Source of the DNA: an uncultured Opitutia bacterium
GTDB lineage: Bacteria > Verrucomicrobiota > Verrucomicrobiia > Opitutales > Opitutaceae
Direction of reading: 5' to 3'
NCBI GenBank assembly: GCA_903820035.1
Contig: CAIJFT010000424.1
Span: 1-43,964 of the forward strand
Length of the DNA: 43,964 nt
The translations under genes and the position numbers were made by a program. Of this stretch, positions 8,393-24,345 are shown piece after piece (the stretch's first letter is position 1; the number at the start of each line of letters is the position of its first letter). The notes below the pieces were generated by a model, which worked only from the letters and a program-made list of their open reading frames with translations, searched no databases and was not told where the DNA came from.

Positions 8393-9640
8393 TCACCCGC
8401 GTAAAAGACGGGAAAGCCGAGCCTCGAATTCCGTCAGAACCCGCGCCGCGCTAAAGCGCTCGACCCACGCCGTCCGCCGCCGCAGCTGCGCGAGCGCAGC
8501 CGGATCCGCCGCCAACTCCTCCAGCGCCTGCGCCAGCGCGGTCGGGTCGGCGGGACGCACATTGCGCCCGAAAGCACCGTCCGCCACGGCCTTGGCCAGC
8601 TCGCTGTCGTCGTCCGCCACGCTCAAGACCGGACACCCGGCCGTCAAAATGGAGAGCAGTTTGCTCGGGAAGAAATACTGCCCTGTGCCGGGCGACTGCA
8701 CGATTAGGCTGACGTCACTGGCGGCCAGCATCCTCTGGTAGTCCGTCTCGTCGAGCAACGGCAACATCCGGAGGCCCGTCATTCCCTTGGCTCGCACCTG
8801 CGCCGCCAGCGTCTCGCGCATGGCTCCGTCCCCCACGAGCAACACCTGAATCCCCGGCGCTCCCGCCGGCCGGGCGTCCAACCGCGCCACCGCCTCCACC
8901 AGCGTTTCCAGCCCCTGCTTGCGCCCCAAATTGCCCGAATATGAAGCCAGGAAGCAGCCCGCCGGAATGCCGTATTTGGCCCGAAACGCCGCGGCCGCGG
9001 CGCACCGCTCGGACGCAGCCGCACTCGCCCCACCGCGAATCCAATTCGGAAATAGCCACCGCTTGGGCTCCGGCACGCCCTTCGCGGCGAACGCCTGCAT
9101 CATGCCGTCCGAGATGCCGGATACCGCCGCCGCGTCCCGATAAGCCCAGGCCTCGACGCGGTAGAGCAGCCGGGTAAAGAGCCCGGGCTTCACCATCCCG
9201 AGACCGACCGCGGCGTCCGGTTGCAGGTCTTGGACATGGAAGACATAGGGTCGCCGCTTGAGCCGGCACAAGAGCGACGCCAGCGGTCCCAAAATCAGCG
9301 GCGGGCTCACCACGATGTACACGTCCGCCGCCGGCCGCAGGAGCACGCGCAGCAACGACCCGAGGCCGAACGTCAGTTCATGGGCGATGCGCCGCAGGGT
9401 CGTCACCCGCCGCGGCACGTACTGCCAGCACCGGTACACCGGGACGCCGTTGATTTCCTCCCGGCGGTGCAGCCGCCCGCGATCGCCCGGCGCCTTCTCC
9501 CAACGGGGATAGTAGGGGAAACCCGTGATCATCTCCACCGTGTGCCCGCGGCGCCGCAGGTCCTCGCAGAGCCCGGCATTAAACGGCGCGATCCCGGTCA
9601 ACTCCGGAGCGTAATTGATGCCCCAAACAATGATGCGCAT
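8393..9640 (-). CDS. WcaI-like GT4 glycosyltransferase
   Basis: GT-B fold glycosyltransferase of 415 residues. The N-terminus MRIIVWGINYAPELTGIAPF and the segment VVSPPLILGPLA match the WcaI (colanic acid) group. The C-terminal donor domain has FPSKLLSILTAGCPVLSV, the usual sugar-nucleotide region. It probably adds a sugar to a lipid-linked glycan on the cytoplasmic face. I chose the ATG at 9640 because the first Rossmann strand begins there; the frame extends 11 residues further upstream. It follows the other minus-strand glycosyltransferase by 16 bases and should be co-transcribed with it. Sugar specificity cannot be read. Confidence 0.87.
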   Translation of the reverse strand: MRIIVWGINYAPELTGIAPFNAGLCEDLRRRGHTVEMITGFPYYPRWEKAPGDRGRLHRREEINGVPVYRCWQYVPRRVTTLRRIAHELTFGLGSLLRVLLRPAADVYIVVSPPLILGPLASLLCRLKRRPYVFHVQDLQPDAAVGLGMVKPGLFTRLLYRVEAWAYRDAAAVSGISDGMMQAFAAKGVPEPKRWLFPNWIRGGASAAASERCAAAAAFRAKYGIPAGCFLASYSGNLGRKQGLETLVEAVARLDARPAGAPGIQVLLVGDGAMRETLAAQVRAKGMTGLRMLPLLDETDYQRMLAASDVSLIVQSPGTGQYFFPSKLLSILTAGCPVLSVADDDSELAKAVADGAFGRNVRPADPTALAQALEELAADPAALAQLRRRTAWVERFSAARVLTEFEARLSRLLRG

Positions 9641-9656
9641 AATAATCCTTGAGCGT

Positions 9657-10835
9657 TCAGGGGCGGCGAACAAAGGGAGTCACGGCTGCGATCAGGCTCG
9701 CCGCACTCGCCGCAATGCCGAAGCGCGAGGTGAAGCAGGCCCGGGCCCGGGCCCCCATGGCCGAGCGCTCCGTGCCCGTCAACGCGGACCACCGGGCGAG
9801 GAGTTGCTCCGTACCCGGCAGATCGTCCGGCGCCACCAAGGCCGCGCCGGCGTCCTCGATTTCGCGCCAGATGTTCACCTGATCGGAAATCAGCACCGGT
9901 CGGCCGCAGGCCAGCGATTCCGCCACGACGATGCCGAAATTTTCCTGGTGCGACGGCAGCAGAAAGGCCTCCGACTGGTAAAAGGCCCCCCACTTCAACG
10001 CCCCCTCGACCATGCCGGTCCAGGTGACCCGTGCATCCAGTCCCAAGCTCCGCGCGAGCTCGCGCATGGCAACGCCGTACGGATGCCCGGCGGGCCCGGC
10101 CATGATCAGGTGCCACGGCTCCGCCGCCGGCCGCTGCTGGAGCTGCCGGGCAAACGCCCGCAGCACCAAGTCGGGGCCCTTCTTCTCGTGCATGCGCCCC
10201 AGGTGCAGGAGACAACGCCGCCCTTCGGTCTCGGGCCAGCGCGCGGCGAAGGCACGGCGGAACAACTCGGGGTCGCCGGACGGCGGGCCGGGCGTGCCGT
10301 AGGCGACGACCCGTTCAACACACCGGTAGAGCCGGAACGAGCGGCTCGCCTGGCGCCGCTCCTCCTCGCAGGTAAACAGCACCGCGGCCGCGTCGCGCAA
10401 CACGCGGTAGTCCGCCCACGGCCAGTACAGGCATTTCTTGAGATGCTTTAGCGGATACGTCCGCTTAAACCACGGGTCGAGCATCCCGTGCGGATAGACC
10501 ACATAGGGCGTATCCGTGCCGTGCAGCGCGCGCCACGTGCCGAAGGCGTTGTACTGCCAGAGCCCGTTGACGATCACCATGTCGTAGTCCCGCCGGTGAG
10601 CGCGCAGCCACGCGTCAAAACGCGGGGTGTAACCGTAGCCGCGCCAGCCCGGCCCCGCGGCGTGCACCGGGACGGGGCACGCCGCGACGTAGGCCGCCGC
10701 CGGATCATCGAGGCTCAGCACCTCGACCGAATGGCCGAGTTCGCGGCAAATCTGCGACAACTGCTTGAGACCTTCCACGGGGCCGCCCCCTGTTGGATCT
10801 ACAGAGTGGATACAGTGCAGGAGGCGCAGCGACAT
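9657..10835 (-). CDS. GT4-family glycosyltransferase
   Basis: Protein of 392 residues with a GT-B fold. The N-terminal domain begins LRLLHCIHSVDPTGGGPVEGL, the glycine-rich acceptor loop. The C-terminal domain contains LHLGRMHEKKGPDLVLRAF and the GT4 E-x7-E region, with LLPSHQENFGIVVAESLACGRPVL. The segment VVYPHGMLDPWF is typical of exopolysaccharide GT4 enzymes. I chose ATG 10835; the frame is open for 51 more codons upstream, but that part is Pro/Arg-rich and unlike the family. It is the first gene of the two-gene minus-strand unit that diverges from the main cluster. Confidence 0.88.
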   Translation of the reverse strand: MSLRLLHCIHSVDPTGGGPVEGLKQLSQICRELGHSVEVLSLDDPAAAYVAACPVPVHAAGPGWRGYGYTPRFDAWLRAHRRDYDMVIVNGLWQYNAFGTWRALHGTDTPYVVYPHGMLDPWFKRTYPLKHLKKCLYWPWADYRVLRDAAAVLFTCEEERRQASRSFRLYRCVERVVAYGTPGPPSGDPELFRRAFAARWPETEGRRCLLHLGRMHEKKGPDLVLRAFARQLQQRPAAEPWHLIMAGPAGHPYGVAMRELARSLGLDARVTWTGMVEGALKWGAFYQSEAFLLPSHQENFGIVVAESLACGRPVLISDQVNIWREIEDAGAALVAPDDLPGTEQLLARWSALTGTERSAMGARARACFTSRFGIAASAASLIAAVTPFVRRP

Positions 10836-11105
10836 GGCAGGCCGCACCGTCTGCGGCGCCAATCCCGCACGCAAGCGTGGAGCGCATGGCTCGGGGGAAA
10901 TGCGGAGTGAGCCTCCGCAAACGCCCCTGCAATCCACGGGTTCCCCCTTCCCTTCCCGCATTCCGTTTTTTGGAAAAATTCCATCCATTTTGTCGCGTTT
11001 TCCTCCAGTAGCCTGATCGATTTACAACGCTGTCGTACAAGTCCTTATGACGCTAAGTAGGTTCCTGCGTTGGGCTCGGCAAAATCGATCCGCACGGTCC
11101 GTCTC
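10836..11105. other. Divergent intergenic region between the two glycan units
   Basis: About 270 bases with no convincing gene. It must hold the promoter of the minus-strand glycosyltransferase pair and probably the main promoter of the long plus-strand run. A GGAA-AAA-TTCC inverted repeat (10973-10983) lies in an AT-rich patch, the only such patch here. I see no JUMPstart/ops element and no confident promoter boxes. Confidence 0.4.
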
Positions 11106-12506
11106 GTGAATCAAAAACGCATGGATGGCTTCATCGCCCTGCACAGCATCGCGCTCGCGGTGCTGCTCTGCGCCGTCTACGTCGCATCGATCGCGATTTT
11201 CCGCGCGACCGAGATCGTGACGTTGCACGAGGACCTCAACTTCCGCCTCTACCTTGTCGGTATTCTCTTCGCCGCTTTTTCCAACGCCCGTCACCTCCGC
11301 GGCGCCGCCGGGCGCTACGGAAAGTTCTCCACGCGCGAAGCCGTCAACCTGACCGTAAACCAAGTCATGCGGCTCATGCTGAGCCTATTCGCGATCGCCT
11401 TCGCCACCAAGGACGCCGCCGTCTCGCGGAGTTTCATCCTCTTCGTGGTGACCGCCAGCGCCTTTTGGCTGCTGCTCGGCAACCTTTTTCTGCCGCGTAT
11501 GCTCGCCGCGCTGTTTGAGCGCCGCTCGCTCCACCACACCGTCATCTTCGCCCAAAGCGCAGTCGCCGAGCGCCTTCATTGCTGGGTCTCCTCGTCGCCG
11601 CATATCGGCGACAAACTGCAGGGCTACGTCGCCACAGATCCGATTCGGGGTGACACGGAATTGCCTTGGCTGGGCCGTCCCGAGCAACTCGCTGAAATCG
11701 TCCACAACCACGACATCGACCAAATCCTCGTGGACCAGACGTTAGCCGGAGACGACGTGAGCCGCGGTCTGATTGAACAATGCGAGCGCCAGGGTTGCCG
11801 GGTGCGTTACTTCGTCGACGCGACCGCCCTCCTCCCCGCCGCGATCACCGGCGTGGAGTTCGCCGGCGGCTACGTCTTTGCCCAATCCACGCCGGAGCCC
11901 CTCGACAATCCCGCGAACCGTTCGGCCAAGCGTCTGCTCGACCTGCTGGTTGCCCTGCCGGTGGTCATGCTGATCCTGCCGCTGGTGGTGCTGGTCACTG
12001 CCGTAATGCAGGGCTTGCAGGCCCCGGGCCCCGTCCTCTACTCGCAGTGGCGGACCGGCTTCAACCGCCGCCGTTTCCGGATCTACAAGCTGCGCACGAT
12101 GTACGTGGCGAACCCGAACACCGCCCTTCAGGCGACCCGCGGCGACTCCCGAATTTTCCCCTTCGGCCGATTCCTACGCCGTACCAGCCTCGACGAACTC
12201 CCCCAGTTTCTGAACGTCTTCAGCGGCGAGATGAGCGTAAGCGGGCCCCGGCCCCACCTCATGGAACACGATGAGCTTTTCGCCCAGCGGATCCGCACCT
12301 ACCGCAAGCGCCATCTGGTAAAGCCCGGCATTACCGGCCTGGCCCAAATGAAGGGTTACCGTGGCGAGATCACCCAGCCATCGGATATCCTTCGCCGGGT
12401 GCGCTACGATATGCACTACGTCGCAAGGTGGTCACTGTGGCTTGATGTTCGCATTATCGTCGGTACGATCCGGCAGATTTTCTTCCCGCCGCAGTCTGCC
12501 ATCTGA
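11106..12506 (+). CDS. Polyprenyl-phosphate sugar-1-phosphate transferase (initiating enzyme)
   Basis: Protein of 466 residues. It has four or so N-terminal membrane helices, a soluble Rossmann-like middle part (about 145-265), another helix (about 275-302), and a C-terminal polyprenyl glycosylphosphotransferase catalytic domain. Signature segments are YKLRTMY, RTSLDELPQFLNVFSGEMS with the catalytic Asp-Glu pair near 363-364, SGPRP, and KPGITGLAQ. It transfers a sugar-1-phosphate from a nucleotide sugar to undecaprenyl phosphate at the inner membrane and so starts the repeat unit. It is the first gene of the long plus-strand run. Start is uncertain: GTG 11106 is taken; TTG 11070 or ATG 11121 are possible, all just before the first helix. 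Confidence 0.93.
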   Translation: MNQKRMDGFIALHSIALAVLLCAVYVASIAIFRATEIVTLHEDLNFRLYLVGILFAAFSNARHLRGAAGRYGKFSTREAVNLTVNQVMRLMLSLFAIAFATKDAAVSRSFILFVVTASAFWLLLGNLFLPRMLAALFERRSLHHTVIFAQSAVAERLHCWVSSSPHIGDKLQGYVATDPIRGDTELPWLGRPEQLAEIVHNHDIDQILVDQTLAGDDVSRGLIEQCERQGCRVRYFVDATALLPAAITGVEFAGGYVFAQSTPEPLDNPANRSAKRLLDLLVALPVVMLILPLVVLVTAVMQGLQAPGPVLYSQWRTGFNRRRFRIYKLRTMYVANPNTALQATRGDSRIFPFGRFLRRTSLDELPQFLNVFSGEMSVSGPRPHLMEHDELFAQRIRTYRKRHLVKPGITGLAQMKGYRGEITQPSDILRRVRYDMHYVARWSLWLDVRIIVGTIRQIFFPPQSAI

Positions 12507-12516
12507 CCCAAGCGAC

Positions 12517-13815
12517 ATGTACTCCGCCTCCAGCCCGACGAAACCTCTAGCCTACCTCCTGACGTTGCTCGGGCCGGCCGGAGCTTTTGTTACGTCTGCC
12601 CAGGCCGAGTGGACCGTTGCGCAGGGGCGCCTGACCGCCGAGGCCACCGCAACCTCGATGTACATGAGCAATGCCGAGGCGCGCCGCAACGGAGCGGAGG
12701 CTTTCACCTTTTCCTTCGCACCTGCCCTGGATTACAAGCGCCAGAGTGCGCTGATCGAAACCAGCGCCACCGCCGGAGTGGAGTTTGAACATGTCCTCGA
12801 CGGCCCGGGCAGTGATCGGGAGGCCAAGCGAGCCGGCCTCACTTTTAGCACGGCCAAGTCGGCCGGCTACCGATTCACGCCCACCCTGCGCACACTTTAC
12901 ACGGAAAGCTACAGCAACGACCTGAACGTCAACGCGCGGATCTTCAACCGCCAGACCACGACCGCGGCTGGCGGGGAAATGACCTTCAGCCCCACTCTCG
13001 CAGGGGCGCTGACCTCGACCTACGAGACGAACCGGGCCGATGGGTACGCTGGCCGGCATTCCCTCGAAAACAAGGGCCGGCTGGAGTCCGCCCTTGGGGG
13101 CCGACGCTCGCTCTTCGCGGAAGTTAACCATCGCGAGGTGGCATCTGACGATCGCAGTGCCGGCTCCACGGCGCTGGACCAGCGCGCATTGAGCACCACC
13201 CTTGGATTTACGCAGGGCTTCAGCACCGGCACCAAAGCTAGCATCGGCGTCGGCTACCTCGACCAGCAGCGTTCCACGGCAGAGACGTTGCTCCGTTCGA
13301 AGGGGAGCTCCGGCGCCACCGTCATGGCCAGTATTGACGGTCCCTTTTTACCGCCCACGCTCTTTCCGAAATTGACCTCGATGATACGCCTCGCTTTTGG
13401 ACGGCTGGAGAACCCTGGACTGCAGGACAACGGAAATAAGCAGCTGACCGGTGAAGTCGCCGTGGGCTGGGCGGCGCGATCGACGACCCGCCTGGGGCTT
13501 GCCGCCGCCCGCACCCGCGATCTGACGGTGAATGACCTGACGATGGAGCGTTCACGCAGCGTTGCCACGGTCGAGCAGTCGGTCGGCAACACCAGTCGCC
13601 TTGCCGGCACCCTTGGCTATGAATGGATGACGATCCGGGGAATCATCCGGCACAGCGAAGGGGCGATCGCCACGTTTTCTGCCAGCCGGAAACTCGGCTC
13701 CCGTGACCGCTGGGAAAGTCGTTTCAATTATGAGTACCGCGACCTAAACTCATCCGAGCAAGTCGCCAATTTCTCCCAGCACACGGTGCGGCTGTCCGCG
13801 ATCTACCGGTTATAA
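12517..13815 (+). CDS. Outer-membrane beta-barrel protein of the export locus
   Basis: Protein of 432 residues with a signal peptide (hydrophobic 11-28, probable cleavage after SAQA at 30). The rest is alternating amphipathic strands with polar turns, no helices, and a final strand ending VRLSAIYRL, as in outer-membrane barrels. I count enough strand-like segments for a 16- to 18-stranded barrel, but this is an estimate. Exosortase/EPS loci often carry a barrel such as EpsL, and short OPX proteins can work with separate barrels. It starts 10 bases after the initiating transferase and is probably coupled to it. I do not recognise a named family. Confidence 0.75.
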   Translation: MYSASSPTKPLAYLLTLLGPAGAFVTSAQAEWTVAQGRLTAEATATSMYMSNAEARRNGAEAFTFSFAPALDYKRQSALIETSATAGVEFEHVLDGPGSDREAKRAGLTFSTAKSAGYRFTPTLRTLYTESYSNDLNVNARIFNRQTTTAAGGEMTFSPTLAGALTSTYETNRADGYAGRHSLENKGRLESALGGRRSLFAEVNHREVASDDRSAGSTALDQRALSTTLGFTQGFSTGTKASIGVGYLDQQRSTAETLLRSKGSSGATVMASIDGPFLPPTLFPKLTSMIRLAFGRLENPGLQDNGNKQLTGEVAVGWAARSTTRLGLAAARTRDLTVNDLTMERSRSVATVEQSVGNTSRLAGTLGYEWMTIRGIIRHSEGAIATFSASRKLGSRDRWESRFNYEYRDLNSSEQVANFSQHTVRLSAIYRL

Positions 13816-13880
13816 ACCGGCAGGTTTGGCGGTCGGCCGATTGTCCTACCGCCCGCCTCGGACCTAGCGCAAACCGCCGC

Positions 13881-15488
13881 ATGCAACGCCCGCGAGTGCC
13901 TAAAAACGAGGGACCGGAACGGTCAAAATCGTCCCAGCCGCTGAAGCCGCTGCAGCATCACCCCGCGCACCTTGCCCGCCGCGTTGCGCCCTGCGCGCTG
14001 CTGGCGACCGCGTGGGCCATGGTATTTTTCCGGATCCACGACACTTGGATCGCGAACCCGGTTTACGCATACGGTTGGTCCGTGCCGTGGCTTGCCCTTT
14101 ACCTCGCACGGGAACGCTGGTTGGACCGCCCGACGGCCGGCGCCACGCCTGGGCCGGGCCTCGTCTGGGCAGTCGCTCTGCTTTTGCTCGGAGCCTATCT
14201 CCCCATCCGGATCATTCAGGAGGCCAACCCCGACTGGGTGAAGATCAACTGGGCCCTGGTCGGCGTTGCCGCGGGTTTTAGCGTCTTGGCCGCGTGGGCC
14301 CAGGGAGGACTCCGCCAAGCCGTACATTTCCTATTTCCCGTTCTGTTCTGCTTCACCGCACTGCCTTGGCCGGTGTGGCTGGAGGAAGAGCTCGTCCAAG
14401 GACTGATGCGGGGCAACGCCTCGGTGTGCGCCGAAGTGCTGACCTTCGCCGGCCTGCCCGCTCTGGCCCAGGGCAACCTGATCCAGGTCGCGAATACCCT
14501 GCTCAACGTCGAAGAAGCCTGCAGCGGTATCCAATCGCTCCAGACGGCCTTCATGATGGCGCTCTTCCTCGGTGAATTCCACCGCGTTACGCTGGCCCGG
14601 CGCGCCGGCCTTCTGGCCACAGCCCTCAGCCTCGCCGTCGTGGGCAACCTGGCTCGAACCCTGATTCTCGCATTCGGGGCACGGACGGGCGCGGCCGAGC
14701 GCTGGCACGACCCGGTCGGCCAGCTCGCGATGGTCCTCACGTTGACCGGCGTCTGGTTCGCCGCGCGCTGGATCCGCGGGCAAACGCCCACCGACACCGC
14801 CACGACGCCAGCGCCCGGCCCCGCCAGCACCACCCTTTCTCCGGTCCTAGCCGGTCTGGCGGTTGTCAGCTTGCTCGGCACCGAAGCGGCGACGGAGCTG
14901 TGGTACCGTCGCCACGAGGTCACGGTTGCCGCGGCAAGGCCGTGGACCGTGACTTGGCCGACCGGCGAGCGGTCGTTCCGGGAGGTAACGTTGCACGCCC
15001 GGGCCCGCGCGTTGCTGCGCTTCGACAGCGGGTCGAGCGCCGCGTGGACGGACGCCGACGGCCACCAGTGGAACGGTTACTTTCTTTCCTGGGAGCCGGG
15101 TCGGGTGTCAAAGTACCTCGCGATGTCCCACTACCCTAGCGTGTGTCTGCCCGCCACCGGCCTGAATCTCGTGGCCGAGACAGCCCCTTGGGAATGGCGC
15201 TACGACCAACTCCGACTCCCCTTTGCGGGCTATCGTTTCACCGACGCCGGCCGGGCGGTCCACGTTTTCCATTGCATCGCGGAAGATCGGCCGCGCCCCG
15301 ACGACGCGGGGTTCACCTACCATCAAGTCACCACCGAGGAGCGGCTGGCGTCGGTCCGCCGCGGCGAGCGCAACCTCGGCCAACGCGTCCTGGGGCTCGC
15401 CGTCCACGGCTGCGCCTCACCGCAGGAGGCTCGGCGCCTCGTCGAGCAGACCTTGGGTTCATTGGTGAAGCCGCCGCGCAAGCCATGA
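13881..15488 (+). CDS. Exosortase fused to an EpsI-like C-terminal domain
   Basis: Protein of 535 residues. The N-terminal two thirds is a multi-helix exosortase with all three catalytic positions: Cys214 in EEACSGIQSL, Arg259 in GNLARTLIL and His276 in WHDPVGQ. Exosortases are transpeptidase-like membrane enzymes thought to cleave PEP-CTERM proteins. After a last helix (about 312-330), residues 335-535 form a periplasmic domain with the EpsI/DUF3485 pattern. That pattern includes strands, GYFLSW, and the conserved segment HYPSVCLPATG. In many loci EpsI is a separate gene. The stop overlaps the TPR gene start (ATGA). The first 30 residues are polar and basic; start ATG 13881 is reasonable but not proven. 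Confidence 0.92.
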   Translation: MQRPRVPKNEGPERSKSSQPLKPLQHHPAHLARRVAPCALLATAWAMVFFRIHDTWIANPVYAYGWSVPWLALYLARERWLDRPTAGATPGPGLVWAVALLLLGAYLPIRIIQEANPDWVKINWALVGVAAGFSVLAAWAQGGLRQAVHFLFPVLFCFTALPWPVWLEEELVQGLMRGNASVCAEVLTFAGLPALAQGNLIQVANTLLNVEEACSGIQSLQTAFMMALFLGEFHRVTLARRAGLLATALSLAVVGNLARTLILAFGARTGAAERWHDPVGQLAMVLTLTGVWFAARWIRGQTPTDTATTPAPGPASTTLSPVLAGLAVVSLLGTEAATELWYRRHEVTVAAARPWTVTWPTGERSFREVTLHARARALLRFDSGSSAAWTDADGHQWNGYFLSWEPGRVSKYLAMSHYPSVCLPATGLNLVAETAPWEWRYDQLRLPFAGYRFTDAGRAVHVFHCIAEDRPRPDDAGFTYHQVTTEERLASVRRGERNLGQRVLGLAVHGCASPQEARRLVEQTLGSLVKPPRKP

Positions 15489-18061
15489 AAGCTCCGCGGT
15501 ATTTCAGCGGTTACATCTGGCTCGCCATCGGGGCGGGCCTCGTCGCCCTGCTCGGCGGCGGCTGGTATACCGTCAGGCACGTGGCCGGCAACTGGCTGAA
15601 CAACCACCTAATCGAGCGCTACAACCGTTCCGCCGCGGAGGAACTGGCGAAGGGCGACGCCCCCAACGCGCTCGTGCTCGCCCGCCGCAGTCTGCAACGG
15701 GCCCCCGGCCACGTCGCGGCCTGGCGCCTCGCGGCCGCGGCCGCGCGGCAACGCGATCAGCCGGATGCCCTCTACTACCAGGAAAATCTGGCGCGGGTTG
15801 ATCCGTCCAAGGAAAATAAATACGAACTGATCCGCCTCACGCTGCACTTCGGGATGGATGCCGACGCCGTCCGGCAGATCAAGGCCTTGACCGGCACAGC
15901 CAAGGACGACGCCGCGTACCTGACGCTCGCCGCGCAGGCCTACCTGAGGCAGGGCAACGCGCTGGCCGCCCGCTTTCACCTGATATCGCTGCTCGCGCTG
16001 CAGCCCGCAGACACCGCCGCCCAACTCGATCTTGCGCTCATCGATCTGGCGGCCGAGACCACAAGCCAGCCCCCGGGTCTCCGCGAAAAAATCCGTCAGC
16101 TGGCCGAAATTCCCGCCCTGCGCCGACCGGCCCTGACCGGGCTGATCCGGCACTGCATCAAGACCAAGCAGGCCGAGGAAGGTCGCGCGCTCATGACGGC
16201 GCTCGAAGCTCAACCGGAGTCCAGCCCCGCCGACCGTCTGCTTCTGTTGGAGGCCGCCTACGCATTCACGCCCGGGACCGCAACCGCCCGCCTCCTTCGC
16301 CTCCAGCAGGCGGCCGCCGCAAACGCGGACGACGCCGCAGGTCTGATCGATTTTATGGCGGAGCACGGCCAGGAGTCCGTCGCCACGGGATGGGCGGCCG
16401 AACTCCCACCCGCCACCCGCCAGACCGAGCCGGTCCGCCGCGCCCTCGCCGATTGCCACCTGCGGCTCCAAGCCTGGGACCAATTGCGAGCGGTGGCCCT
16501 CGAGGACGAGTGGCCGGCGCGCGAGTTCCTCCGCCGAGCCCTGCTGGCTCATACTTACCGCGCCCAAACGCGACTCACCGAGTTCAACGAGGCGTGGAAC
16601 GGGGCCGTGCAACTCGCCGGCGCCAGCTTCAACCACACCCGGGAACTACTCGGCCGGATCGAGGCCTGGCACTGGAATCGCGAGCGGTTTGACCTGCTCT
16701 GGAAACTCTTCTCCTTCCTGCCGGGCCATCTGGAACTGCGAAGGGAAATTGCCAACTGGGAGCACCAGCAGGGCAACACGGCCAACCTGCTGCGACTCTT
16801 CAGTCAGGTCACCGACTTCACCCCCGCCGACGGCGAGAGCCGCGCCAATGTTGCCTATTGCACCCTGCTCCTCGACGCCGATCTCCCCGGCGCGACGACG
16901 ACCTTTCGTGAGCTCATCGCGCTCGATCCGCAAAATCCGTATTTTGCCACCGGTCACGCCCTCGCTCTCCTGAAGCAGGAGCGGTTTCCCGAGGCGCTGG
17001 CGACCTTGTCCACCCTGCGGCCCTCCCAGCTCGCGGTGCCGGAACGCATGAGCCTGCAAGCCTGGCTGCTCGCCTTGAACGGCCGGGTCGACGAGGCCGA
17101 GATCACCCTGAACTCGCTCGTCTCGGACGGACTTCTGCCGGAGGAGAAAAAATTTGCGGATAACGCCCGGCAGGAGATCGCCCGCCTCCGACGTACACGC
17201 GAACAGGAGTCGCAACTCGCGCTCGGCCAAGGCGGAGCGGGGTCGGGAGGCGAGCGGAACGGCTGGCTATTCCTGATTCATTCCCGTCTCGCAGCCCCCC
17301 CGACCTTCGACATGCGATTGTCGGACCGACTTTTTTCGCGCCGCGACGTCCCCAGTCTGGCCCGTTTGGTCCGCAACGGCGACTGGAGAAACCAAGAGCA
17401 CCTGCGGCTCGCGCTGCTGGCTTATGCCGTGAAGTCCGACGATCCAGCGGCCGCCCGTGAGGCCTGGACGCACGCGCTGACCCGCGCCCGGCAGGAACCG
17501 GCCGGAGTGGCGCAACTCGAAATTCTGGCCGCGGACTGGCACTGGGCGGTTGAGCAAATTGAAGCCCTCAACCTGCTGAACCAGCAGGACCCCGTCGACC
17601 GCGAACGCCTGAACCGCCTGCTCGCTTACTATCGTGAGCGGCAGCGCACCGCCGAGCTGATCCGCGTTCTGCGCCCGTGGATGGAGCGCGCGCCGGACTC
17701 AGCCGAGTCGCTCCTCTATTTCTACTACAGCCTCCTCGCAAACCTCGAAACGAGCCGGGCGGTCGTGGCCGCGGCGGAGGTCTACGCCGCGCGGCCAAAC
17801 GATGCCGACCGTACCCTCCTCCACGCCTTTGCCCTCAGCCGCGCGGGCCGGCGGGACGACGCGACCCGCCTGCTCGACGCGCTGCCGGAAAAGCCGGGAA
17901 GCAGCCTCCCGGGCGCGCTGATCCGCGCCGTCGTTCTGGCGGACGCAGGCCGGGCCGACGAAGCCGCCCGCGCCTTGGCCCGGTTCGATTCGGCCAAGGC
18001 CCTACCCGAGGAGCTCGCCCTCATCCGAAAAATCACCCAGAAAACCGCCGGCTCACCATGA
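15485..18061 (+). CDS. Membrane-anchored tetratricopeptide-repeat protein
   Basis: Protein of 858 residues. An N-terminal membrane helix (about 9-30) leads to a long periplasmic solenoid of Ala/Leu/Arg-rich helix pairs with TPR spacing. Examples are AEELAKGDAPNALVLARRSLQRAPGH and the ALALLKQERFPEAL type repeats, spread over most of the chain. It has no lipobox. Exosortase/EPS loci of Proteobacteria carry a comparable TPR protein (PrsT, a lipoprotein), so this is a likely functional counterpart acting as a scaffold for export or sorting. It overlaps both neighbours by ATGA junctions (15485-15488, 18058-18061). The open frame extends upstream to 15143 inside the exosortase gene, but that extension is a shadow. 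Confidence 0.85.
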   Translation: MKAPRYFSGYIWLAIGAGLVALLGGGWYTVRHVAGNWLNNHLIERYNRSAAEELAKGDAPNALVLARRSLQRAPGHVAAWRLAAAAARQRDQPDALYYQENLARVDPSKENKYELIRLTLHFGMDADAVRQIKALTGTAKDDAAYLTLAAQAYLRQGNALAARFHLISLLALQPADTAAQLDLALIDLAAETTSQPPGLREKIRQLAEIPALRRPALTGLIRHCIKTKQAEEGRALMTALEAQPESSPADRLLLLEAAYAFTPGTATARLLRLQQAAAANADDAAGLIDFMAEHGQESVATGWAAELPPATRQTEPVRRALADCHLRLQAWDQLRAVALEDEWPAREFLRRALLAHTYRAQTRLTEFNEAWNGAVQLAGASFNHTRELLGRIEAWHWNRERFDLLWKLFSFLPGHLELRREIANWEHQQGNTANLLRLFSQVTDFTPADGESRANVAYCTLLLDADLPGATTTFRELIALDPQNPYFATGHALALLKQERFPEALATLSTLRPSQLAVPERMSLQAWLLALNGRVDEAEITLNSLVSDGLLPEEKKFADNARQEIARLRRTREQESQLALGQGGAGSGGERNGWLFLIHSRLAAPPTFDMRLSDRLFSRRDVPSLARLVRNGDWRNQEHLRLALLAYAVKSDDPAAAREAWTHALTRARQEPAGVAQLEILAADWHWAVEQIEALNLLNQQDPVDRERLNRLLAYYRERQRTAELIRVLRPWMERAPDSAESLLYFYYSLLANLETSRAVVAAAEVYAARPNDADRTLLHAFALSRAGRRDDATRLLDALPEKPGSSLPGALIRAVVLADAGRADEAARALARFDSAKALPEELALIRKITQKTAGSP

Positions 18062-18960
18062 ACGCCGCCAAGGTCCCAGTTTCAATCCTCATCCCGATCA
18101 AGAACGAGGCGGCCAATCTGCCGCGTTGCCTTGCCGCAGTCGCATGGGCGGAACAGATCGTGGTGGTGGACTCGCAGAGCACCGACGGCTCCATCGCGAT
18201 CGCGGAGGCCCAGGGCGCCGAGGTCGTGCAGTTCGCGTTCAACGGAGTCTGGCCGAAGAAAAAAAACTGGGCGCTGGATCACGTGCCGTTTCGCCATCCT
18301 TGGGTCTTCATTTTGGATGCCGACGAGGTGCTGCCCGAGACCGCTCGCGCTGAGATCGGGGCCATCGTCGCCGCCGACGGCGCCGGCCACGCGGGCTATT
18401 GGATCAATCGCCGCTTCATGTTCATGGGCGAGTGGCTGCGTCATTCCTACTACCCGAACTGGAATCTCCGGCTCTTCCGCCACGTCGCCGGCCGTTACGA
18501 GCGCTTGGTCGAGGGCGCGACCGGTAGTGGGGACAACGAGGTCCACGAACACATCGTGGTGCAGGGCACCACCGCCCGCCTCCGCTGCGAGATGGACCAC
18601 TTTGCGTTCCCTTCGATCCATACTTTTGTCGAGAAGCACAACCGCTACTCCAACTGGGAGGCGCAACTCGCCTCCGAGTCGGGGTTAGCCCGCACCGGCG
18701 CTCTCCTGCAGGACCGGGCCGCCGGTTGGCGACGGTTCATCAAGCGCGCCGTCCGCCAACTGCCATTCCGGCCGACGTTGCGATTTCTCTACGTCTACGT
18801 CGCCCAAGGTGGATTCCTCGACGGCCGGCGCGGGTTTTATTTCGCCCGGCTGCACGCCGTGTACGAATTCCTCGCCGTCGCCAAGACCGCGGAACTTCGG
18901 CTGGCCCGCCAAGCCGCCGAACGCCCGCGTCCGCCGGCAGGCCACTGCACCAAGCCCTGA
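18058..18960 (+). CDS. WaaE-like GT2 glycosyltransferase
   Basis: GT-A fold enzyme of 300 residues. It opens SILIPIKNEAANLPRCLAAV, then VVVDSQSTDGS, and carries the metal-binding motif ILDADE. The segment WPKKKNWAL and the later NWNLRLFRH are typical of the WaaE/KdtX group, which adds sugars to lipopolysaccharide core or related acceptors. A C-terminal amphipathic region (RRGFYFARLHAVYEFL) may touch the membrane. The start overlaps the TPR gene stop (ATGA). Its place between TPR and export genes suggests a core or first-sugar step, but the donor is unknown. Confidence 0.88.
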   Translation: MNAAKVPVSILIPIKNEAANLPRCLAAVAWAEQIVVVDSQSTDGSIAIAEAQGAEVVQFAFNGVWPKKKNWALDHVPFRHPWVFILDADEVLPETARAEIGAIVAADGAGHAGYWINRRFMFMGEWLRHSYYPNWNLRLFRHVAGRYERLVEGATGSGDNEVHEHIVVQGTTARLRCEMDHFAFPSIHTFVEKHNRYSNWEAQLASESGLARTGALLQDRAAGWRRFIKRAVRQLPFRPTLRFLYVYVAQGGFLDGRRGFYFARLHAVYEFLAVAKTAELRLARQAAERPRPPAGHCTKP

Positions 18961-18982
18961 GCCTCCTTCAACTTTCCCGCGC

Positions 18983-19654
18983 ATGATCCCCCTCACCACC
19001 ACCGCCGGTCCGCGTCCCAGCCTCGCCCGTTCCCGCTACCCAGCCTTCGTGCTTTGCGCCATGCTACTCATCGCGCGCGGGGGCATCTCCGCCGCCGGCG
19101 CACCCGCAGCGGAAACCACGAGCGTGACGAACCCCGAATACGTGCTCACCGCCGGGGACACCATTGTGGTCGTCATTGATGGCGAACCCGAACTGCGCAC
19201 CGCGAACCTCATCGCCCAGGACGGAACGGTGCGCCTGCCGTTGGTGGGTGGTATCCGGCTCGAGGGTCTGCCGGTACGCCAGGCCGAAGCGCTGCTCGCC
19301 AAGGGCTACCGCGAAGGCCTTTTCCTCCGGAACCCCGAGGTCCACGTGCAGGTGACGGAGTATGCCGCTCGGCTTGTCAGCGTTCTCGGCGCCGTCCGCA
19401 TCCCGGGAAAAGTCACGTTCCCCAAAGAGCGAAAGCAAATCGAAATCATCGACGCGATTACGCAGAGTGGCGGGTTTCTGCCCGTGGCCAAGGGCGACGC
19501 CGTCGTCGTCACCCACACCGACGCCGCCGGTCACGAGACCCAAAGGATCGTCGATGTCGCCGCCCTCATGAGTGGAAAGCGCAAGGACGACAAACCTGCC
19601 GTTATCTTTGTCCAACCTGGTGACCGCATTTTTGTTCCAGAGCGCTTGTTCTGA
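18983..19654 (+). CDS. Short OPX-type polysaccharide export protein
   Basis: Protein of 223 residues with a signal peptide (hydrophobic 19-38; cleavage near SAAGAPA; no lipobox cysteine in the usual place). The polysaccharide-export domain covers about 48-127 (PEYVLTAGDTI, DGTVRLPLVGGI, NPEVHVQV). One SLBB-type domain follows from about 131 (VLGAVRIPGKVTF, AITQSGGF, PGDRIFVPERLF). Wza of E. coli is near 380 residues and ends in the helix that forms the outer-membrane pore; this protein ends after the SLBB domain, so it lacks that part. It should act in the periplasm in series with the chain-length regulator encoded 34 bases downstream. The barrel at 12517 could supply the outer-membrane channel. 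Confidence 0.9.
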   Translation: MIPLTTTAGPRPSLARSRYPAFVLCAMLLIARGGISAAGAPAAETTSVTNPEYVLTAGDTIVVVIDGEPELRTANLIAQDGTVRLPLVGGIRLEGLPVRQAEALLAKGYREGLFLRNPEVHVQVTEYAARLVSVLGAVRIPGKVTFPKERKQIEIIDAITQSGGFLPVAKGDAVVVTHTDAAGHETQRIVDVAALMSGKRKDDKPAVIFVQPGDRIFVPERLF

Positions 19655-19688
19655 TCCCGCCCCCGACCCATCTTCAGCTCCGACCGTC

Positions 19689-21851
19689 ATGGAAAACGCC
19701 CCGCCCACCCGTCTCGCCGCTGCCAAGTTGAACCTCAAACGATCCCCGCGGGAGTTCGTCGCCATGTTCCTGGAACGCTGGTGGATCGGCGCTTTGGTCG
19801 GCGCCGCCGCCGGCGCGGCCGTCTTTCAATTCAGTCCTCGCCCGGAGCCCGTCTACCGCACCGAGGTATCGCTGATGTTCGAGTCGAAACGCAGCCGCAT
19901 CCTCGCGATGCAGGAAGTAGTGGATACCACCGTCCAGGGAATCAACGAGCTGAATAACCACCTCGAGCAACTCCGCAGTAAAACCTTCCTCGACTACCTG
20001 CTTGGTTCGTTCACCCCGGAAGAGGTGGCGAAGATTCAGCAGTCTTACCGCGACCCGCTAAACCCGTCCGCGCCGCCGCCCCCCCTCGCCGATCTCATTC
20101 AGAGTGGAACCGCCGCAAACGCCCGGCGCGGGACGACGATCATCAGTATCACGGTGAACAACCGGAATCCGGAGGCCGCCGCGCTCATCGCCAACCGGTT
20201 CGCCCGGAAGTACATCGACTTCAGCCTCGACCGCGCCAACACCGGCACCAGCTCCGCGATCATCTTCCTGCGTAACCAAGCCGAGGAGACCCGCACCGAA
20301 GTCGAGTCCGCCGAAACCTCGCTGCAGGCCTACCGGGCCAAGCATAACATGGCCACCCTCGGCGAAGCGAAGGACGTCACCGTCCAGAAACTCGCCTCGC
20401 TCGGCGAGGCATCCGTGGCCGCGCGGCTCACCCAGATTCAAAGCAAATCGTTGATCGATAAAATCGCGGCTGACCAGGCCGCGGGCCGGGATCTCTCGGA
20501 AATCAGCCAGATCGCCGCCACCCCTCAGGTCGCCGCGGCCAAGAGCCGCCTCACTGAACTCGCCACGCAACGCACGATGCTTGAGCAGCGGTACCTCGCC
20601 CGGCATCCGAAAATTGTCGAAAACGAGGTCGAACTGCGCGAGGCCCGACGCCTCCTCGACGACGGGGTGGCGCGGGCCGGGTCGAGCCTTCGCACCAACT
20701 ACGACGTCGCCGCGCAGCAACTGCAAAGTCTCCAGAAAGAAATGGTCGAGACCGAGGCGCAGGTCCGATTGCTCGACAAGATCGCCGTCGACTACAAGTT
20801 CTTGGAGCAGGACGCCGTCACCAAACGGGCGACGTACACCGGCATCGTGTCGCGCCTCGGGGAGGCAAAGATCACCAGCCAACTGGAGAATACGACGATC
20901 AAGGTGTTCGACGCGGCACCGGTGCCTGGGGCGCCCATGGACCGCGGCACGGCCCGCATTGTCAGCCTTACCGTGACGGCGGCGTTTGGTGGACTGCTGC
21001 TGGTGCCCCTCCTGATCGGCCTGCTCGATACGCGCGTCCGGAGTCCGTACCACGTTGAAGAGGCCCTCGGGGAGAAACTGCTCGGTGCGATCAAGCCGCT
21101 GGTCCGAACCTCCGCCTTTTCCAACGCCAACTCCTTCCGGGCCAACAACGACGCCGCCCTGACCGAGAGCTGGCGCGGCATCTACAGCGAAATCGAGGTC
21201 GGCTCCGCCCTGAAATACCCGAAGACAATCCTCGTAAGCTCGAGTATTCAGGCCGAAGGCAAGACGCAGGTCGCCTGCAACCTCGCCGCCGTCTACGCAC
21301 AACACCGCAAGAAAGTACTGCTCGTCGACTGCGATCTGCGCCGCCCCGGCTTGCACCGCCAGTTCAACCTCAAGAGTCCCCACGGGTGGACGGAATGGAT
21401 CCAGCGACCGGCTGATAGTCGTGGTGCGGTTCCAGATACCGTCACGACGGTCGAACCCTATTTCGACTTCCTCCCCGCCGGCCCCACCCCGGCGAACCCG
21501 ACGCAGGTCCTGGACCTCCTCGGCCGGCGAGAGGTACTCCAACTGTGGCTCGACCGCTACGACGTCGTCATCTTCGACACTCCGCCCGCCTCGACCTTTC
21601 CCGATGCCGTACTGCTTGCCCGCAGCTGTAACGAATTGTTCTTTGTCATCGGCTACAAGATTATCTCGGCCCAAACCGCCTACCGGACGCTTTCCCGCTT
21701 CGGCGAGACGGGTATCGCCAAGCTCGGTGTCATTCTCAACCGGCTGCCGTTGTCCAAGATTATTAACTACGGCGATTACTCCGGCTACGGCGGCCAAGAT
21801 ACTCGTTTCTACAAATCGTACGCCGAAGAAGGCGACGGCGGCTCCAAGTAA
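19689..21851 (+). CDS. Polysaccharide co-polymerase fused to BY-type tyrosine kinase
   Basis: Protein of 720 residues combining a Wzz domain and a cytoplasmic kinase. Membrane helices are at about 31-48 and 424-446, flanking a large periplasmic coiled-coil part (about 200-400). The Pro-rich PCP motif sits near 411-417. The kinase has Walker A SSSIQAEGKT (517-526), Walker A-prime LLVDCD (544-549), Walker B VVIFDTPP (626-633), and a C-terminal tyrosine cluster (Y694, Y697, Y700, Y708, Y711) for autophosphorylation. Walker A has Ala where most BY-kinases have Gly. It controls chain length and couples assembly to export. The ATG at 19689 follows the OPX gene by 34 bases. Confidence 0.94.
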   Translation: MENAPPTRLAAAKLNLKRSPREFVAMFLERWWIGALVGAAAGAAVFQFSPRPEPVYRTEVSLMFESKRSRILAMQEVVDTTVQGINELNNHLEQLRSKTFLDYLLGSFTPEEVAKIQQSYRDPLNPSAPPPPLADLIQSGTAANARRGTTIISITVNNRNPEAAALIANRFARKYIDFSLDRANTGTSSAIIFLRNQAEETRTEVESAETSLQAYRAKHNMATLGEAKDVTVQKLASLGEASVAARLTQIQSKSLIDKIAADQAAGRDLSEISQIAATPQVAAAKSRLTELATQRTMLEQRYLARHPKIVENEVELREARRLLDDGVARAGSSLRTNYDVAAQQLQSLQKEMVETEAQVRLLDKIAVDYKFLEQDAVTKRATYTGIVSRLGEAKITSQLENTTIKVFDAAPVPGAPMDRGTARIVSLTVTAAFGGLLLVPLLIGLLDTRVRSPYHVEEALGEKLLGAIKPLVRTSAFSNANSFRANNDAALTESWRGIYSEIEVGSALKYPKTILVSSSIQAEGKTQVACNLAAVYAQHRKKVLLVDCDLRRPGLHRQFNLKSPHGWTEWIQRPADSRGAVPDTVTTVEPYFDFLPAGPTPANPTQVLDLLGRREVLQLWLDRYDVVIFDTPPASTFPDAVLLARSCNELFFVIGYKIISAQTAYRTLSRFGETGIAKLGVILNRLPLSKIINYGDYSGYGGQDTRFYKSYAEEGDGGSK

Positions 21852-21943
21852 GAACCCCGGACACTGCGGCGACCCAGCCTTTTCCGATTTCCTCCGCGTC
21901 CGCCAATTCCTTCCCTGCCCCCGGGCCCTCGTGCGCCTCAGGG

Positions 21944-23455
21944 TTGCGCGCGGCCGCCGGCGTCGGCGTGCTCGCACTACTGGTCTTTGCTCCCCTTCAC
22001 TACGGCTCAACCCGGCCGGGCGGCATCGAATGGCTGCTTGCCCTCGGCGCTCCGACCGTATTGCTGTGGGCCGCAAGCTGGGTCGTGGCGCGACGTCGTC
22101 CCGCTGTGCCCGCGATCTTTGCCGGTTTCGCCGGACTGGTGTTGCTCGCCGCGGTGCCGTGGCTCACCGGCCTGGCCCAGCCCACGGCCATCGCCGATTT
22201 CACCCGCGAACATTTCGGCCGGGTCGCCGCGCGCTGGCCCGATTGTCTCGTCTGGTGGAACCAGTGGAACCAGCTGGGCTTTATCGGGCTGCTCGTCGCC
22301 GTCATGGTGATGGCGGTTGATTTCGCCCGAAGCCCGACCTGGCTGCTCGCGATGGTCGTCACCATCACCGCTACGGGCACGGCAGTGGCCGCCCTCGCCC
22401 ACGTCCAAAATGCCCTCGGCTGGAAAACTATTTTCGGCGAGGCCGGCCCGCCGCTGATGACCTACTTCTCCGGCACGTTTTATCATCACACCGCGGCCGG
22501 AGCCTATTTGAACTCAGTGTGGCCCCTGGCCTTCGGGCTGGCGTGGCTTTCGTGGCGCGCGGGCTGGCGGCAGGGCTGGACGCGGGGCAATACCGCTCGG
22601 ACAGCCGCGGGCGTCTTTGCGACGGGCCTGCTGCTGACCGCCCACGGCGCTCACGTTTCGCGCCTGCCCCAGGCGGTGGCCGCCCTGTGCCTAATCGCCT
22701 TGATCCTCGTGCTGCTGCCCCGCTACGGCGTGAAGGTGCGGCTTTGGTCGACCCGACGCAAACTCGGCGTCGCGTTCGGCTTGCTCGCGCTGGCCGGCGC
22801 CGCGGTGTTACTCGTCAACACCACCGGCCGGATCGAAAAAATCGCCGACCGCTGGCGGGCGCTGCTCTTCCCGCCCGCCAATCCCACCGTACCCATCTGG
22901 CACCAGCCGCCCGAAGCCGAGTGGAACGCTTACGTCGGCGGCGATCTAATCATCCACGCAGCAAGCCGCGAGCGCACTTTTGGCCTGCGCCAAATCGCCT
23001 GCGAGGATGCGATTGCCGCAATCCGGACCCGTCCCTGGTTCGGCCACGGACCCGCCAACTGGATCGGAGCCGCCAGCCGGCACTCCACCGATCCCACGGT
23101 GCGTTCTTTCTTTCAAATGCTCCAGTTCACCCATCAAGACGTCCTGCAGTTTGCGGTCGAATGGGGCCTGATTGGCGCCCTCGGCTGGTGGGGATTACTG
23201 GCCGGGGGGCCCGTGCGACTCCTCCGCCTGAACTTCACCGGGCGAACCCTTGGCGCGATTGAGATCGGCGTGTTCTTCGCGCTCGTCGGGGTGCTGCTGC
23301 AATCACAATGGGATTTCCCGCTCCAGATGCCCGGCATCGCGCTAAACATTGCCGTGCTCGCCGGCATCGCTTGGTCCGCGCAGCGCAGCGCAACCGCCGG
23401 CGTAGACTCCGCGGCGACCTTTGCCCCCTTTCAAAGCACCCGCTCCCATGCCTGA
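21944..23455 (+). CDS. O-antigen ligase/polymerase-like membrane protein
   Basis: Protein of 503 residues with about 11-12 predicted membrane helices. It has a large periplasmic loop near 270-400 holding the Wzy_C-type pattern: PWFGHGPANWIGA and then FTHQDVLQFAVEWGLIG. WaaL ligases and Wzy polymerases share this architecture, so either joining a glycan to an acceptor or polymerising repeats is possible. The C-terminal 25 residues are polar. The start is uncertain: TTG 21944 is the longest option; GTG 21968 is close. Its stop overlaps the ABC permease by 8 bases. The WaaL/Wzy distinction cannot be made from sequence alone. Confidence 0.86.
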   Translation: MRAAAGVGVLALLVFAPLHYGSTRPGGIEWLLALGAPTVLLWAASWVVARRRPAVPAIFAGFAGLVLLAAVPWLTGLAQPTAIADFTREHFGRVAARWPDCLVWWNQWNQLGFIGLLVAVMVMAVDFARSPTWLLAMVVTITATGTAVAALAHVQNALGWKTIFGEAGPPLMTYFSGTFYHHTAAGAYLNSVWPLAFGLAWLSWRAGWRQGWTRGNTARTAAGVFATGLLLTAHGAHVSRLPQAVAALCLIALILVLLPRYGVKVRLWSTRRKLGVAFGLLALAGAAVLLVNTTGRIEKIADRWRALLFPPANPTVPIWHQPPEAEWNAYVGGDLIIHAASRERTFGLRQIACEDAIAAIRTRPWFGHGPANWIGAASRHSTDPTVRSFFQMLQFTHQDVLQFAVEWGLIGALGWWGLLAGGPVRLLRLNFTGRTLGAIEIGVFFALVGVLLQSQWDFPLQMPGIALNIAVLAGIAWSAQRSATAGVDSAATFAPFQSTRSHA

Positions 23456-24311
23456 TCCCATCGAACCGCCGCCGGCCGTCACGATTCGCCCGACCCGGTC
23501 CTGGGTCGATTTCGATTGGCGCAGTCTGGTCGCGTACCGCGATCTGATCAGTCTGCTCGTCCAACGTGATTTTACCGCGCGCTACAAGCAGACGGTACTC
23601 GGGCCACTCTGGTACATTCTCAATCCCTTCATCACCACGCTGGTCTTCACGGTGGTGTTCAGCCGGATCATGGGGATCTCGACCGACGGCACGCCGCCGA
23701 TGCTTTTCTACCTCTGCGGCATGCTGGGCTGGTCGTACTTCTCGAACGTGCTCGGCGCCACGTCGAACTCGCTCGCGGGCAATGCCGGACTCTTCTCCAA
23801 GGTTTACTTTCCGCGCCTGGTGCCGCCGATCGCCGCCACCCTGTCGAACCTGCTCGCCCTCGGCGTGCAGTTGGCGACCTTCCTCGTCTTCTACACGCAG
23901 CAACTGCTGTCCGGCGCACCCGATGGCATTGCGGCTCCCGGCTGGCGCTGGCTGCTGTTTCCGTTGCTGGCCGTGCACATGGCCCTCCTCGGGCTCGGCG
24001 TCGGGCTGGTGTTGTCCACCCTGACGGCCAAGTACCGCGACCTCCAGCACATCCAAGGATTTCTCGTGCAACTGTGGATGTACGCCACGCCTGTGATCTA
24101 CCCGTACTCCCGCATTCCCGTGGAATGGCGCTGGATCGCCGCACTCAATCCCATGACCGCCGTGATCGAGGCGACCCGCTGGGTGTTCCTCGGCACCGGC
24201 TCGGTCCCGAGCTCGACCTATCTGCTCTCGCTCGTTCTGACTGGCGGGCTCTTGGCTCTGGGCCTGATCGTCTACCAACGCGCGGCCCGGACTTTCGTCG
24301 ACACCGTCTGA
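23448..24311 (+). CDS. ABC-2 type polysaccharide exporter permease (Wzm-like)
   Basis: Protein of 287 residues with the ABC-2 permease layout. A cytoplasmic N-terminus with WVDFDWRSLVAYRDLISLLVQRD and FTARYKQTVLGPLWYILNPF precedes six membrane helices. The segments LGWSYFSNVL, KVYFPRLVPPIAATLSNL and ATPVIYPYSRIP are typical of Wzm/KpsM proteins. Paired with the ATPase 34 bases downstream, it would flip undecaprenyl-linked glycan across the inner membrane. I chose ATG 23448 (MPDPIEPP); the frame extends 9 codons upstream inside the previous gene. Confidence 0.94.
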   Translation: MPDPIEPPPAVTIRPTRSWVDFDWRSLVAYRDLISLLVQRDFTARYKQTVLGPLWYILNPFITTLVFTVVFSRIMGISTDGTPPMLFYLCGMLGWSYFSNVLGATSNSLAGNAGLFSKVYFPRLVPPIAATLSNLLALGVQLATFLVFYTQQLLSGAPDGIAAPGWRWLLFPLLAVHMALLGLGVGLVLSTLTAKYRDLQHIQGFLVQLWMYATPVIYPYSRIPVEWRWIAALNPMTAVIEATRWVFLGTGSVPSSTYLLSLVLTGGLLALGLIVYQRAARTFVDTV

Positions 24312-24345
24312 TGAACCGCCGCCACTCGTCACCTTTTTCCCCGGC

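Follow-up and report, generated by a model that had tools for sequence, protein, structure and literature searches.

A short OPX gene and a barrel gene in one polysaccharide run

The stretch of DNA analysed here, hereafter the window, comprises 43,964 nucleotides of contig CAIJFT010000424.1 from an uncultured Opitutia bacterium of the family Opitutaceae, phylum Verrucomicrobiota (assembly GCA_903820035.1; 6,048,463 bases in 469 contigs). On its + strand, a run of polysaccharide genes includes a β-barrel gene (12517–13815) and a gene for a short outer-membrane polysaccharide export (OPX) protein (18983–19654). A first-pass annotation suggested that the two products form a two-part outer-membrane exit for the glycan, in the manner of short OPX proteins and separate barrels in Myxococcus xanthus. 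That precedent is borne out by PMC9601211, in which the two-domain (D1D2) OPX protein EpsY and the barrel EpsX stabilize each other and interact. Gene linkage, predicted fold and natural OPX–barrel fusions support the proposal well, and the window pair is very probably a composite EpsY/EpsX-type outer-membrane translocon; contact between its two proteins and export through them are the steps that we infer. The barrel fold and the shared + strand run on which the annotation relied both hold up, but the genes are not neighbours: 5,167 bp and three + strand genes, encoding an exosortase, a tetratricopeptide repeat (TPR) protein and a family 2 glycosyltransferase (GT2), lie between them.

The OPX gene starts with ATG and encodes 223 amino acids, under the empirical 280-residue limit for D1D2 OPX proteins in PMC9601211. 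Pfam's Poly_export domain (PF02563) is matched at E=7.8e-18 (64.9 bits; cut-off 28) and SLBB_2 at E=4.8e-4 (20.6 bits, under its cut-off of 27; SLBB is likewise below cut-off), and neither Wza_C nor GfcC was matched at E<=0.1. An AlphaFold2 model built from 24 sequences (mean predicted local distance difference test score (pLDDT) 85.6, predicted template modelling score (pTM) 0.63, block-mean pLDDT 80–97 from residue 51 onward) comprises two domains, its final element being a strand at residues 215–218 shortly before the chain end at 223. Every 19-residue stretch starting after residue 50 has a mean hydropathy of 1.07 or less. Model, hydropathy and domain scan agree with the earlier description of a protein that ends right after its SLBB-type D2 and has no Wza-type C-terminal helix; such a pore helix, which the annotation held to speak against its own proposal, is absent from the model. 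Foldseek placed 9n9a, the M. xanthus class 3 OPX protein WzaB, first among solved structures (E=1.5e-16, 31% identity), ahead of Wza entries, with a match of 171 columns that covers D1 and D2. The D1 and D2 fold is shared with Escherichia coli Wza (2j58, E=1.1e-11), whereas Wza also has D3 and the D4 pore helix, of which the window protein has neither. With its Poly_export domain, a D2 following D1, its length and its predicted ending without a Wza_C helix or GfcC, the protein is, on this model, a D1D2 OPX protein of class 3, a class defined with its barrel partners in PMC9603273. Its NCBIfam scores fall under the equivalog cut-offs (TIGR03027, 73.5 bits against 180; EpsE TIGR03028, 95.2 against 262.65). 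The sole cysteine, residue 25, is preceded by leucine, so no lipobox is seen.

The barrel gene also starts with ATG and encodes 432 amino acids with, by eye, a likely signal peptide. Its AlphaFold2 model from 11 sequences (mean pLDDT 80.1, pTM 0.71) has 20 strands, and residues 37–432 align with solved outer-membrane barrels. Among the 50 VIA-align entries shown, Z scores run from 20.5 to 17.2 and include many TonB-dependent receptors, together with AlgE at 18.3 over 310 residues. Because many unrelated barrels score alike in both Foldseek and VIA-align, the fold assigns no function to the protein. The family profile BBP2_2 (PF10082) is matched by 10/10 other members of the barrel alignment, which are 25–29% identical to the window barrel, and homologues also match EpsL or TIGR03016 weakly. 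The window barrel itself gave no match to BBP2_2 up to E=10, and none to EpsL (TIGR03014) or TIGR03016 at E<=0.1, thus staying short of the NCBIfam cut-offs.

The run, all on the + strand, opens with an initiating sugar-phosphate transferase (11070–12506; listed start TTG) that matches Bac_transf at E=9.8e-60 and TIGR03025 at 343 bits, above cut-off, and is WcaJ-like, under the WcaJ equivalog cut-off. The barrel gene follows after 10 bp and, after a further 65 bp, the exosortase gene (13881–15488; Exosortase_EpsH E=5.3e-34, below the cut-offs of every named Xrt type listed). Overlaps of 4 bp join the exosortase gene to that of the TPR protein (15485–18061; 858 aa, by eye a single hydrophobic stretch at the N terminus, TPR_19 E=6.5e-10, PrsT TIGR02917 below cut-off) and the latter to the GT2 gene (18058–18960; 300 aa, Glycos_transf_2 E=6.4e-12). 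The OPX gene begins 22 bp later and is followed after 34 bp by a polysaccharide co-polymerase (PCP) fused to a bacterial tyrosine (BY-type) kinase (19689–21851, ATG at 19689; 720 aa; TIGR01007 117.5 bits against a cut-off of 108.05). In this protein hydrophobic windows exceed the threshold used only at starts 423–432; for M. xanthus, an extra-long periplasmic part of the co-polymerase has been proposed. Beyond it lie genes for a Wzy_C family protein (O-antigen ligase or polymerase; 21944–23455; PF04932 E=3.1e-11; listed start TTG), a Wzm-like ABC transporter permease (23421–24311; ABC2_membrane E=6.2e-24, KpsM and Wzm models below cut-off) and a Wzt-like ATPase (24346–25581; ABC_tran E=4.2e-23, Wzt_C E=2.5e-8), after which profile scans of the window find further glycosyltransferases and sugar-modifying enzymes. 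The barrel gene is thus no more than five genes away from the OPX gene, and both belong to a polysaccharide cluster with PCP, Wzy_C, ABC transporter and glycosyltransferase genes, the arrangement by which genes of a composite translocon are recognized. A promoter and terminator scan of 10950–22000 found a single promoter-like site, which falls within the co-polymerase gene, together with six terminator-like sites; these counts are no higher than in shuffled sequence, so the scan is uninformative on operon ends.

Barrel linkage of short OPX genes

We searched 120 genomes of the family for barrel homologues at E<=0.001 and found them in 19, the source genome included, leaving 18 relatives. A Poly_export search placed an OPX gene within about 6 kb of the homologue in 13/18, among them all 11/11 relatives with a barrel match at E<1e-19; by a rough estimate, a randomly placed gene would be so linked by chance in about 0.7% of cases. 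Barrel and OPX genes are 5–62 bp apart in nine of the 13; in three others the gap is 3.9–4.0 kb, and in the last it is 5.1 kb. The five relatives with no linked OPX gene are G019, G063, G089, G110 and G109 (G and L numbers are our handles for genomes and loci), the match in G109 lying at a contig end. Five stretches (L055, L056, L058, L059 and L061) share the order barrel, OPX, co-polymerase–kinase, Wzy_C, Wzm, Wzt. Across the 13 linked stretches, some of them cut by contig ends, Wzm and Wzt homologues both occur in 9/13, exosortase homologues in 5/13 and TPR protein homologues in 3/13. The window looks like a rearranged version of this cassette, with the exosortase, TPR and GT2 genes between barrel and OPX. 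By eye, a lipobox is apparently present in the OPX proteins of some cassette relatives.

Two of these stretches have features of their own. The G046 barrel homologue (L065 8940–10215), one of the nine cases with a gap of 5–62 bp, is split over two overlapping open reading frames (ORFs), which points to a frameshift in the gene or the assembly. L057 carries a second, divergent short OPX gene at 2874–3488, on the same strand and about 6 kb from its cassette OPX gene at 9455–10087.

A less selected count over 51 family genomes used 119 Poly_export hits (E<=1e-5) and 102 BBP2_2 hits (E<=0.01), the latter merged to 92 genes. A BBP2_2 gene lies on the same strand within 6.5 kb of 64/98 OPX frames of up to 300 aa (62 of them within 1.5 kb), as against 1/14 frames of 301–420 aa and 0/7 longer than 420 aa. 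Seen from the barrel side, 65/92 BBP2_2 genes are near an OPX gene, and 63 of those 65 lie upstream of it. These pairing counts are lower bounds, since the BBP2_2 profile misses both the window barrel and the barrel beside the OPX gene of contig C459. Within the source genome, a barrel-like gene is found immediately upstream of both further OPX genes that have enough surrounding sequence (L073 6845–7963, BBP2_2 E=9.7e-10; L074 5793–7394, E=0.0043, under cut-off); the fourth OPX gene is close to the beginning of a contig of only 3.5 kb. Candidate neighbours here and in the wider set below were picked with a home-made heuristic barrel score. The annotation had expected that barrels missing from most related loci would refute the proposed pair; with 13/18 relatives and 64/98 short-OPX frames paired, they are not.

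Beyond the family, the OPX alignment was run against named genomes and yielded loci from several phyla, of which the best 80 of 84 were analysed; all 80 were retrieved by a single pattern taken from the D2 end and are therefore biased toward OPX proteins with that motif. The ten named loci nearest in OPX sequence (E 1e-47 to 1e-29) belong to Opitutae, Opitutaceae, Opitutales and Verrucomicrobia records, one of them Akkermansia muciniphila, which is consistent with a place for the window among Verrucomicrobia, close to the Opitutaceae. Our own barrel profile found a match within 6 kb of 18/35 OPX genes of up to 280 aa, 5/24 of 281–420 aa and 0/21 longer ones. Sorted by ending, a barrel is nearby for 32/47 OPX proteins that stop three residues past the last D2 motif and for 0/33 that continue, one of the latter being the fusion protein described below. 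A barrel here means a match at E<=0.01 either to our own profile, which in 13/23 such loci scored only 14–43 bits, or to BBP2_2. The BBP2_2 scan was limited to hand-picked neighbours, ten candidates and then ten more from both OPX classes; it added 8 loci, four of them (L091, L099, L101 and L105) under Pfam's cut-off, and L131 later brought the count to 32/47. Candidate neighbours at L106 and L137 gave no BBP2_2 match and were left out of the count. Before that last addition, Fisher's test gave p=1.2e-10 for 31/47 versus 0/33, ignoring relatedness and locus selection, and the barrel profile had no hit at E<=0.01 among 9,245 reversed ORFs.

Among the 47 short-ending proteins, the final residue is F 33 times, Y 5 times, W and I 3 times each, L twice and V once; at the equivalent position, proteins that continue mostly have D, G, R or T. 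This end, encoded in the window at 19622–19654, may be where the barrel docks. Separately, three Bacillota or Clostridia records carry a barrel-like ORF with an SLH domain 3–6 kb upstream of a very long OPX gene (L115 4754–7000, L118 4463–7090 and L134 4296–6932; OPX products in the range of 907–1154 aa). These barrel-like ORFs are not BBP2_2 and so were not counted.

OPX–barrel fusions in Alphaproteobacteria

One of the 80 loci, L142 from Alpha proteobacterium Q-1, encodes OPX and barrel as one chain of 679 aa (9959–11995). TIGR03027 is matched at residues 49–214 and the barrel follows, with TIGR03016 in two stretches (the best at 219–485; 161.2 bits, above cut-off) and BBP2_2 reaching residue 678. 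Four more of 80 genomes of Q-1's order carry relatives that span both halves: G383 (57% identity, with an internal stop), G377 (52%), G393 (42%, truncated by the contig end) and G370 (35%). Fusion frames of these relatives, each combining TIGR03027 with TIGR03016, lie at L202 15777–17840, L204 7639–9690, L203 3–2030 (cut at the contig end) and L201 15907–16551 and 16732–18060 (broken by a stop). In a class-wide sample of 240 genomes, the L142 fusion was the only row that spanned both halves.

Every TIGR03016 match found in the five fusion genomes falls in the fusion frame, although a separate barrel was possibly missed, as these genomes may be incomplete. All five also encode a separate short OPX protein (frames of 207–265 aa), on the same contig as the fusion in G120, G383 and G377. 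In G120 the unfused OPX gene lies about 13 kb from the fusion, on the opposite strand, within the stretch that also carries XrtA and the ATPase associated with it. Fifteen genomes of the order with no fusion, taken from the higher-ranking matches rather than at random, have TIGR03016 in a frame with no Poly_export hit in 14 cases and no match in one (G403).

The newest result of this analysis is these fusions beside a second, unfused OPX protein; we found no mention of an OPX–barrel fusion in the literature searched, including the available text of PMC9601211 and PMC9603273, a search that covered neither supplements and preprints nor most subscription papers. Such natural fusions give independent support for the pairing. 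They also put the D2 end near the barrel, since only 2–9 residues separate the OPX and barrel profile matches and the aromatic D2 end is retained at the junction. The published model has eight OPX subunits and one barrel, a ratio that is assumed and for which we found no measurement in the literature. Fused and unfused OPX proteins might share a ring, and if rings are so mixed, the short junction would fix the D2 end beside the first barrel strand. It is conceivable, though we would sooner doubt it than assume it, that OPX and barrel make up a single machine carrying one barrel per ring, in which a fused subunit among unfused ones supplies exactly one barrel and of which the window pair is the separate-chain form. 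Fused proteins offer an experimental handle, with the geometry fixed and the barrels per ring countable.

A probable composite outer-membrane exit and its alternatives

In several secretion pathways, one step is still open, namely how a polymer gets out of the cell when its OPX protein lacks a pore. Our data tie short OPX proteins to BBP2_2-type barrels in Opitutaceae relatives and, across phyla, tie the absence of an OPX tail to the presence of a barrel. Linkage of barrel and short OPX genes, an OPX protein whose model has no helix and fusions in another bacterial group together support a two-part exit. In the arrangement that we propose, the 223-aa OPX protein would form a periplasmic ring from its D1 and D2 domains, positioned above the inner-membrane co-polymerase and its fused kinase; the OPX protein itself has no part able to cross the outer membrane. 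The separately encoded barrel would sit over the side of D2 that faces that membrane and provide the hole by which the polymer leaves. Ring formation, ring–barrel contact and polymer passage are the predicted elements of this scheme.

The window pair is most likely a further case of the composite OPX/barrel translocon already published in 2022, and the design itself is not new. PMC9601211 lists 453 short OPX proteins with a coupled barrel and no C-terminal helix among 2,749 OPX proteins, in 10 phyla, and names PVC among the superphyla in a figure legend. The annotation had presented the pair as a case in a different phylum, and the pair is indeed present in this verrucomicrobial window, but extension beyond Myxococcus is not novel, given those 10 phyla. 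Like EpsY/EpsX (WzaX/WzpX), the window combines a D1D2 OPX protein that has no outer-membrane helix with a separate barrel gene in the same polysaccharide cluster and a PCP gene beside the OPX gene, and the nearest fold is that of the M. xanthus paralogue WzaB. Unlike that system, it has three genes between the pair, an exosortase and a Wzm/Wzt ABC transporter in its run, and an OPX protein with no lipobox seen, whereas the three M. xanthus OPX proteins have type 2 signal peptides. PMC9603273 reports homologues of the M. xanthus barrels only from myxobacteria. The OPX–barrel pairs of XrtA/XrtB exosortase loci (TIGR03027/TIGR03028 with TIGR03016/TIGR03014 EpsL) resemble the window in that its OPX protein matches both OPX models and an exosortase is in the run; they differ in that all of these scores are below cut-offs and the window barrel has no match itself. 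By gene content, the window also resembles prmC/prmD of Sphingomonas LM7 (PMC11340318), where a barrel gene adjoins an SLBB export gene in a polysaccharide cluster, although that cluster is of the Wzx/Wzy type and comes from an alphaproteobacterium. Among 486 barrel-coupled OPX proteins, PMC9601211 assigns 185 to Wzx/Wzy and 14 to ABC transporter pathways, with 287 unassigned. Our searches found no paper joining Opitutaceae, exopolysaccharide (EPS) and polysaccharide export, nothing from 2023 on that joins WzaB, WzpB and OPX, and, among the papers listed for Verrucomicrobia exosortases, nothing on this system.

Several observations weigh against a composite translocon. The window barrel itself matches no Pfam or NCBIfam model (NCBIfam at E<=0.1), and its single AlphaFold2 model, from 11 sequences, has 20 strands versus 18 in the published partners EpsX, ExoB and WzpB. 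The two genes are 5.2 kb apart, and four same-genus genomes (G006, G054, G081 and G104) have no barrel homologue at E<=0.001. In the 51 family genomes, 34/98 short-OPX frames have no BBP2_2 gene in range, and 27/92 BBP2_2 genes are away from any OPX gene.

The barrel could instead serve the exosortase system, for example as an exit or anchor for sorted surface proteins, and be in the run because exosortase and glycan genes travel together. The exosortase gene starts 65 bp after the barrel gene, five of the 13 linked relatives have exosortase homologues in their stretches (L059, L060, L062, L063 and L064), and the barrel model TIGR03016 is named for PEP-CTERM systems. No homologue of the window exosortase, however, was found in the other 8/13 stretches with barrel and OPX genes (L055–L058, L061, L065, L071 and L072; some cut by contig ends), and the fusions in L142 and its relatives join the barrel to OPX, not to an exosortase, so that we regard this explanation as improbable. 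The TPR gene between barrel and OPX raises another possibility, namely that barrel and TPR protein export a polymer as in synthase-dependent systems (PgaA, or AlgE with AlgK), leaving the OPX protein to another exit or only to regulating the co-polymerase. Weak matches of the TPR protein to PgaA and PrsT models and the presence of AlgE among the fold matches of the barrel fit this idea, as do the OPX-like proteins that Gram-positives also have (PMC9603273). A TPR homologue, however, occurs in only 3/13 linked stretches (L059, L060 and L062), whereas all 13 were chosen for having a linked OPX gene, and one lies near 65/92 BBP2_2 genes in the count with less selection. Moreover, no PgaC- or Alg8-kind synthase was named among the scanned window genes, PgaC_IcaA being a below-cut-off match of one GT2, and we give this explanation a similarly small chance.

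Least probable, in our view, is that the barrel is an ordinary porin or an uptake receptor that lies near the OPX gene for other reasons. Its best fold matches are mostly TonB-dependent receptor barrels, and both the 27/92 BBP2_2 genes away from OPX and the weaker homologues in G019, G063, G089 and G110, which have no nearby OPX gene, are what such a barrel would predict. Against it, barrels are closely linked to short rather than long OPX genes and are also fused to OPX, and the window barrel (432 aa, 20 strands) has no plug domain. In the comparable Sphingomonas cluster, moreover, the barrel mutant and the mutant of the neighbouring OPX gene are both EPS-negative (PMC11340318).

For a composite translocon in the window, the polymer would probably cross the inner membrane by way of the Wzm/Wzt-like ABC transporter encoded in the run, a route made less certain by the Wzy_C family protein also encoded there. 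Kinase-fused co-polymerases are the usual companions of Wzx/Wzy pathways. In the window (19689–25581) and in cassettes L055, L056, L058–L062, L064 and L065, a kinase-fused co-polymerase shares its run with a Wzm/Wzt-like ABC transporter; the window and five of these cassettes also encode a Wzy_C protein.

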